DNA of 64,000 nucleotides from Mariniblastus sp. GTDB taxonomy: Bacteria; Planctomycetota; Planctomycetia; Pirellulales; Pirellulaceae. The notes under the pieces were generated by a model. The model saw nothing but the letters and a program-made list of their open reading frames with translations, searched no databases and was not told the origin of the DNA. Below, in pieces: positions 31,830-33,356 of this stretch (position 1 is its first letter; every line of letters starts with the position of its first letter). A program made the position numbers and the translations under genes. The DNA is taken from NCBI GenBank assembly GCA_023300235.1, contig JALZWN010000125.1:21746-85745 (forward strand). Reading direction: 5' to 3'.

Positions 31830-31857
31830 AAGCACCGGTAAATCGCCGGTGCTTTTT
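31830..31857 (+). terminator. Intrinsic terminator
   Basis: AAGCACCGG-TAAATCG-CCGGTGCTTTTTT downstream of the 30488-31726 gene. Confidence 0.85.
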
Positions 31858-31872
31858 TGCTGCGCGGTGGAA

Positions 31873-32149
31873 GCCCGACGCGTTCGCGAGGAACCGATAG
31901 TCGCCTTTCACTCCGTGAAAGTAGCGCTACCTCCGGCGGACATTCGCAAAGCGGTTGGCTCTGAATGAACAGTGGTCTTGCCGTTTATCTCAAGAACTGC
32001 ACAGGAGTGACTGGATGAGAGATTTGTCGAGTGCACCTTAGCTTTGTAGGAATGCTGTCCTGCTTGTCCGTCCATGCAAACGCTTCTTTCACGAAGTGAA
32101 AGGCGACTATCTGCGCATGACTAAATGAACAAGCCGGTTAGCGGGGACC
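31873..32149. repeat. Dispersed ~270-bp MITE-like element, copy 1
   Basis: Similar to 52850-53115 and 63345-63630; TIRs ATAGTCGCCTTTCACTCCGTGAAAG (31897-31921) and CTTTCACGAAGTGAAAGGCGACTAT (32086-32110). Confidence 0.9.
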
Positions 32150-32277
32150 TGTGGAAATCCTCGCTAACACGTCGGGCTACTCTTCATAGGCCCTTACTAA
32201 AATGCAAAACTGATTCCCTATAGCTATTACAACAAGATTGTATTGTGGCGCAAATTAATACTGCTAAAATCGATCCA

Positions 32278-32449
32278 AGTCTTGGTGGCGCAATGCGCAG
32301 GTCGATGTTTCGTCGACCGAGAACCCGTAGTGGCTCTAGATAGAACTGCAATCGTAAGCATCCGCTAACGATTGTCTTTGCAAGACTAACTACGAGAGAC
32401 TCCGACTGGATGTCTCTCGTAGATTTTCGTTGCTTACCCGACCAAGACT
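32278..32449 (+). ncRNA. Candidate retron ncRNA (msr-msd)
   Basis: a1 AGTCTTGGT (32278-32286) perfectly complementary to a2 ACCAAGACT (32441-32449), extendable by two G-C pairs over a 1-nt bulge. Between them: GGTCGA-TGTTTCG-TCGACC (32300-32318), CAATCGT/ACGATTG (32349-32374), GTCTT-TGC-AAGAC (32374-32386), 11-bp perfect stem CTACGAGAGAC/GTCTCTCGTAG (32390-32422). Ends 4 nt before the RT ATG. Confidence 0.8.
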
Positions 32450-32453
32450 AGCC

Positions 32454-33356
32454 ATGACACTGCTCTTTCGATTTCTTGCTTGGCTCTCACGACTCTTCGC
32501 TGGTGGACGAACCGTCAAAGAATTGGCTGCCCGAATTGGCGTTTCAATTGACGAACTTAAAAGCGTAGATCTCAGCTACCGACAAACCAGCATCCCCAAG
32601 AAGTCTGGCAAACGACGAAAACTCAACGTACCCAACGATGACCTAAAAGCGATGCAGCGCAGAATCTTGCACCGCCTGCTCAAAAAACTTCGCAGCCACG
32701 GCCTAGCAACGGGTTTCAAACCCGGCGTCTCTTTTGTTGACAATGCGAGATGCCATCAAGCACAAGCAGTTGTAATCCGCATCGACCTAGTTGACTTCTT
32801 TCCGTCGATCAAACGCAGTATGGTCCAGCACTACTTCCGCAAAATCGGATGGGGGCGCCAAGCCGCGAAACTTCTCTGCAAGCTGACGACACACAACGAC
32901 AGCCTGCCACAAGGTGCACCGACCAGCCCCATGATCAGCAACTTAGTTTGTTTTTTGATGGATATTCGTTTTTCTCTTATCTGCGATGAATACGACCTCA
33001 TTTACACTCGCTACGCCGATGACATCACTATTTCTTCGCACCACGAAAACGTTGATGTCCACCATGTCCTTTCTGAAGCACTTCGCATCATTCGCAGCTA
33101 CGGCTTCCAGCCACACTTTGGCAAAAAGTTTGACGTCCGCCGATCGCATCAACGCCAAATGGTCACAGGGCTGGTCGTCAACGAACGAGCCAATTTGACA
33201 CGAGAAAAAAGACGCTGGCTGCGCGCGGTTCAGCACCGAAAAAAGCTCGCCCAGGCGGGTGGTTACCTCGGCCCACGTCCGACGCTAACCGACGAACAAC
33301 TCGAAGGCTGGCGGAGCCTACAAAACATGATCGACCAAACGGTCGACATCGATTGA
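32454..33356 (+). CDS. Retron-type reverse transcriptase
   Basis: Region X NAxxH (VDNARCHQAQAVVIRIDLVDFFPSI), SLPQGAPTSPMISN, YTRYADDITIS, region Y VTGLVVNERANLT. Confidence 0.93.
   Translation: MTLLFRFLAWLSRLFAGGRTVKELAARIGVSIDELKSVDLSYRQTSIPKKSGKRRKLNVPNDDLKAMQRRILHRLLKKLRSHGLATGFKPGVSFVDNARCHQAQAVVIRIDLVDFFPSIKRSMVQHYFRKIGWGRQAAKLLCKLTTHNDSLPQGAPTSPMISNLVCFLMDIRFSLICDEYDLIYTRYADDITISSHHENVDVHHVLSEALRIIRSYGFQPHFGKKFDVRRSHQRQMVTGLVVNERANLTREKRRWLRAVQHRKKLAQAGGYLGPRPTLTDEQLEGWRSLQNMIDQTVDID

Follow-up and report, generated by a model that had tools for sequence, protein, structure and literature searches.

Retrons are usually described as three-part defence systems in which msr, msd and reverse transcriptase (RT) form one transcript. 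The msr-msd-RT of Retron-Eco1 (Ec86, type II-A) is made as one transcript and cut afterwards, a C-terminal fragment of its RT binds an 8-bp msr hairpin with a UUU loop, and the priming guanosine is normally embedded in AGC (PMC6868368). Type XIII retrons, whose descriptions are taken here from PADLOC names and reviews, have partner genes (WGR_XIII/HEAT-ARM_XIII and SWIM_XIII), and the RNAs of the type XIII loci that are sisters to our family have a length of 222-265 nt and, close to the start of the RT, an outer stem of 10-21 bp. Retrons that lack a clear proximal effector were remarked on in passing (Mestre 2020, in PMC8867640). Here we report a locus of Mariniblastus sp. (Planctomycetota), found in a stretch of 64,000 nucleotides (the window), which, judged from its sequence, is a genuine retron and a new, compact, effector-less planctomycete variant.

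The RT gene (32454-33356, with its ATG at 32454; this gene, its RNA and its promoter are all on the forward strand) encodes 300 aa and carries the retron hallmarks of region X (NAxxH, here NARCH), YxDD (YADD) and region Y (VTG, within VTGLVVN). An earlier note on this DNA had listed DNARCHQ, YADD and VTGLVVN, with motifs and coordinates right. Four libraries (Pfam, PADLOC, NCBIfam and PDB) assign the protein to the retron type. Pfam found RVT_1 (1.2e-19) and no other domain in it, the Ec86 RT structure in the PDB was matched by sequence at 4.9e-35, and the best PADLOC model was RT_XIII (8e-74, 247 bits), followed by III-A and II-A. In NCBIfam the protein matched the St85 type at 2.7e-62, which is under that model's cut-off, and Drt2 at only 3.4e-9. 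The RT is present as a single copy in its genome, where the other RT match is distant (33-34% identity). The retron identity of the RT and its upstream RNA is genuine.

Homologues of the RT (E <= 1e-20) were found in 33 of 395 genomes of the order. Nine RT upstream regions have in common the motif (C)TGTCTTGGTGGTGC..GCACAGGxCGATGTTTCGTCGxCC, further hairpins and GCAAGAC at 101-119 nt. With a covariance model built from these nine loci, 635 genome searches (242 in the family, 393 in the phylum) recovered 34 loci, all of them in Planctomycetota genomes: three that had been used for training and 31 others. The RNA was present in 12 of 242 and 22 of 393 genomes (about 5%), the window's own genome being counted in both sets. 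A homologous RT lies on the same strand directly behind the RNA in 34 of 34 model loci, which strongly supports a joint function of RNA and RT; the structured RNA that had been claimed directly upstream of the RT is thereby borne out as conserved and covarying. A scan of the genome contigs with a single sequence gave no match, and one with the alignment succeeded. Rfam (4227 families) had no match at the RNA in the window or in eight relatives. Viral contigs held RTs of no more than 42% identity, and the 11 that were searched lacked the RNA. In 43 distinct sequences 93.1% of cells were paired and the covariation score was 0.39; with the partners slid, the values were 33-51% and 0.07-0.11. This alignment was fitted to the model, and the pairing counts are biased towards structure. 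A MAFFT alignment of nine sequences, not fitted to the model, had compensatory changes in 11 of 25 pairs, which agrees with the slid controls. The RNA as a whole is clearly beyond chance.

The arm a1, AGTCTTG (32278-32284), pairs with a2, CAAGACT (32381-32387). In the 43 distinct sequences 91.9% of the cells of this closing helix are paired, six of its eight pairs have changed on both sides, and GCAAG(A/G)C stands at the place equivalent to a2 in nearly all members. It is this inner pair, 32278-32284/32381-32387, and not an outer pair considered below, that forms the a1/a2 repeats enclosing msr and msd. The unpaired guanosine right after a1 (32285), a G in 43 of 43 sequences, is the candidate priming (branch) residue. 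AGC follows a1 in one of 40 family loci and in seven of 33 sister loci, in which the arms are uncertain; because the motif is rare in sister loci too and an invariant G is present instead, AGC was not treated as strictly defining retrons.

The msr has three hairpins. The first is GCGC-AAT-GCGC (32288-32298; 98.8% paired, compensatory changes in 4 of 4 pairs), the second is GGTCGATG-TTT-CGTCGACC (32300-32318; 99.1% paired, changes in 4 of 8 pairs), and the third (32320-32337) is weak, supported by folding and by helices 4-5 of the covariance model, which are 72-91% paired. The second hairpin, which the earlier note gave as GGTCGA-TGTTTCG-TCGACC and rightly took for msr, has 8 bp and a UUU loop; it is of the kind that the Eco1 RT binds (PMC6868368), is found in type XIII ncRNAs as well and, together with the NAxxH, YADD and VTG motifs of the RT, makes up the likeness to Retron-Eco1. 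Between hairpin 3 and a2 lies a stretch of variable sequence, 49 nt long at the median across the family, in which most members form a hairpin (median z -2.9); we take it as the predicted msd. In the window it would comprise about 40 nt (32340-32380), with the hairpin GCAATCGT..ACGATTGT at 32348-32375, rather than the 32349-32437 proposed before, since an 11-bp stem included in that proposal falls outside.

This 11-bp stem (32390-32422), read earlier as the end of the msd, belongs with the tail ATTTTCGTTGCT to a terminator-like hairpin (32390-32434). A hairpin lies within about 3 nt after a2 in 39 of 39 loci, unconserved in sequence and in most cases trailed by a T-rich stretch. It resembles an intrinsic terminator; as the T tail is poor in GC-rich members, the hairpin could instead protect the 3' end. 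On the other side of the RNA, a sigma-70-like promoter (32243-32270) with TTGTGG (32243-32248), a 16-nt spacer and TAAAAT (32265-32270) has its predicted start at about 32277, at a1. It is a weak match, and a simple promoter scan of the window reported none. Across 50 family loci the best promoter score upstream of a1 had a mean of 8.24, against 6.50 for shuffles; TTGAC occurred 28-35 nt before the model start in 25 of the 50, and the -10 hexamer mostly ended 4-8 nt before the RNA. With a promoter before a1 and a hairpin after a2, the RNA would therefore be a unit with fixed ends, and we consider it very probable that it is a separate unit of about 110 nt between its own promoter and terminator. 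The anatomy suggests that transcription probably extends into the RT by read-through. Further upstream, a strong terminator-like hairpin (AAGCACCGGTAAATCGCCGGTGCTTTTTT, 31832-31859) follows the preceding gene, and the retron is therefore probably outside that gene's operon. Between that gene and the retron there is an inverted repeat, CCTTTCACT..AGTGAAAGG (CGCCTTTCACTCCGTGAAAG / CTTTCACGAAGTGAAAGGCG; 31904-32103), which resembles a dispersed repeat.

The earlier note had read the locus differently, with a1 (AGTCTTGGT, 32278-32286) pairing with an a2 (ACCAAGACT, 32441-32449) close to the RT start and the 11-bp stem within the msd. Its letters and coordinates, including those of the perfect stem at 32390-32422, are correct, and the layout seemed canonical because in type XIII retrons a2 does abut the start of the RT. 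That this layout is the true one here is improbable. The outer pair is perfect over 9 bp and belongs to the minimum-free-energy (MFE) structure of the complete read-through transcript, with pair probabilities of 0.86-1.00, and an a2 near the RT start does occur in type XIII retrons; against this, the pair is seen in the window locus only, the inner pair covaries, and the 11-bp stem occupies the place of the terminator-like hairpin. In 38 other loci the complement of a1 beyond the inner a2 reaches only 3-6 bp, and 32441-32449 was rejected as a general a2. The window holds 32 cases of 9-bp arms 150-200 nt apart, and the estimated chance of a 9-bp match at that spot is about 0.001 per locus, or about 5% over all loci examined. 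The outer 9-bp pair is thus not demonstrated beyond chance, and the a1 arm itself is real. When conservation was checked in the regions upstream of RT homologues, a1 held up, as an arm that covaries with the inner a2 the earlier note had missed, and the a2 at 32441-32449 did not. Somewhat less improbable, though still unlikely, is that both partners are used in a switch, with the inner pair in the terminated RNA and the outer pair in the read-through mRNA, where it would mask the stretch immediately ahead of the RT start and limit RT translation. Folding fits such a switch: a transcript ending at the terminator forms the inner a1/a2 with a probability of 0.93-1.00, and in the read-through transcript the inner pairs fall to 0 and the outer pairs, covering the region before the RT start, replace them. 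It would concern a single locus, with no conservation even in the nearest relatives.

In a tree of 122 RTs the family lies on one side of one branch (support 99/99, length 0.54). All members of the clade are Planctomycetota except one (L117), from a metagenome-assembled genome (MAG) named Candidatus Methylomirabilis (Methylomirabilota), which may reflect transfer or misbinning. PADLOC RT_XIII is the closest model and was matched by 18 of 18 family members scanned; the score of the window RT is 247 bits, compared with 530-645 for the true type XIII RTs of the sister group (Chitinophaga, Nannocystis and Hyalangium). Several type XIII RNAs (e.g. Chitinophaga L125 and the Planctomicrobium MAG L151) carry this msr hairpin as CGATGTTTCGTCG or a close variant of it, and most share a core stem CCTT(GC)..(ACG)AAGG next to the presumed priming site. 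This CCTT/AAGG core appears to have become the closing stem of the planctomycete RNA. In contrast to type XIII, RTs of the window family are about 300 aa long, lack the extended N-terminal part and form a separate clade; their RNAs have 104-164 nt and lack the outer 10-21-bp a1/a2 stem and the long msd, but possess a promoter of their own and a T-tailed hairpin after a2; and the type XIII partner genes are absent beside them. Comparison of the sequences thus points to a system related to type XIII that is not a member of it by partner genes. Three other Planctomycetota RTs (L146, L151 and L176) group with type XIII, and L146 and L151 carry partner genes (PADLOC-confirmed for L151); both kinds of retron therefore occur in the phylum.

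Several loci depart from the common form. Two tandem RNA copies precede a single RT in L045/L066 (G636:C212), where each copy is followed by its own hairpin, and in L065 (G603:C52, 1501-1617 and 1667-1780). The RTs of L012, L013, L014/L043, L015, L016 and L017 have 470-580 aa with a C-terminal extension (no Pfam match in the three scanned), and in the RNAs of L015-L017 a very long hairpin replaces the short msd. Five of these extended RTs (L012, L013 and L015-L017) were counted in the family; two reach the model threshold, weakly, and L015-L017 match the sequence motif. The RT of L010/L073 (G221:C13), a close relative at 52% identity, had no RNA upstream by the model on that stretch and lies directly behind a different gene. 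A sub-threshold Rfam match to HgcC (31.1 bits, E 0.001) was found behind the RT of L011, at 1890-1982.

No accessory gene accompanies the family. In 41 neighbourhoods no gene recurred beyond close relatives, and the downstream neighbours in several loci are housekeeping genes (GcvT, oligopeptidase F and a PLP-dependent decarboxylase). As a control, the same procedure applied to named sister loci recovered a WGR/HEAT-ARM gene of about 1,050 aa in 27 and a SWIM gene of about 550 aa in about as many; neither was found in the 11 family loci within the control set. The SWIM_XIII and WGR_XIII models had no match in the whole genome of the window, and of 24 genomes that carry the RNA, 22 lacked SWIM_XIII. 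Beside the RT, PADLOC found nothing except a weak methyltransferase match. A same-genus comparison for an empty site found relatives of the neighbouring DUF2608 gene in two genomes, without synteny. Neither an accessory protein nor an effector domain fused to the RT, as in a tripartite defence system, was thus found at the locus, and the family lacks both the accessory protein and the AGC priming motif of Retron-Eco1. Of the 'complete retron' in canonical layout described earlier, the RT and its cognate RNA stand; the accessory gene and AGC are missing, and the single-unit layout gives way to an RNA with its own promoter and terminator.

The only extra feature common to the RTs of the clade is an N-terminal helix, which by hydropathy is a transmembrane segment in about half of them (L012, L014-L017, L046-L050, L052, L056, L059, L060, L062, L063 and L066) and looks amphipathic (for example MTLLFRFLAWLSRLFAGG) in the others, the window RT among them. 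As this helix is the sole extra feature shared, the RT might be self-sufficient, tethered to the membrane by its N-terminus and acting as effector in its own right once phage sensing by the small msDNA releases or activates it, with no separate toxin; this reading of the hydropathy is tentative and rather unlikely.

The explanation we hold with high confidence is a two-part retron that consists of a retron RT and an RNA of about 110 nt. Transcription would start at a1 and mostly stop at the hairpin behind a2, giving a separate, abundant RNA with exact ends, and a minority of read-through transcripts would supply the RT. The a1/a2 stem would close the RNA, the RT would bind the msr hairpin with the UUU loop and prime from the invariant G at 32285, and the hairpin before a2 would be the template of an approximately 40-nt branched msDNA. 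The system, present in about 5% of the Planctomycetota genomes sampled, is in all likelihood a reduced relative of type XIII retrons.

Two other explanations concern the system as a whole. The RT could use the RNA without forming msDNA, for instance in the manner of the ncRNA-associated defence RTs DRT2 and DRT10 and without a 2'-5' branch, and the missing AGC priming motif and tripartite organisation speak for this. We regard it as very unlikely, given that the region X and Y motifs are intact, that the msr hairpin matches those of type XIII retrons and that matches to DRT families are far weaker than that to the St85 type. Least likely of all is a degenerate or silent retron that has lost its effector and is decaying; the absent accessory gene and the patchy distribution count in its favour, but the RT motifs and RNA pairs have been retained across the phylum with compensatory changes, and the long persistence of both parts after the partner had been lost from the whole clade implies a function. 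For the two-part retron preferred here, kinship with retrons, patchy distribution and varied locations suggest phage defence as the most likely role, with the effector possibly residing in the membrane-like N-terminal segment of the RT or in an unlinked host protein.

No description of this group was found in the open-access literature, a scope outside which the main classification paper lies. The surprise is moderate because effector-less retrons, which likewise consist of RT and RNA only, have been noted before, as the passing remark in PMC8867640 indicates; compared with that remark, the present case delimits a whole clade together with its RNA family. Rfam does not include that family, which the covariance model can readily locate. 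The very compact RNA and RT are of possible use for short DNA synthesis in cells. For the Planctomycetota, this clade has retained RT and RNA together across the phylum without a linked effector, and it offers a clean case in which to study the function of a retron that has no toxin.
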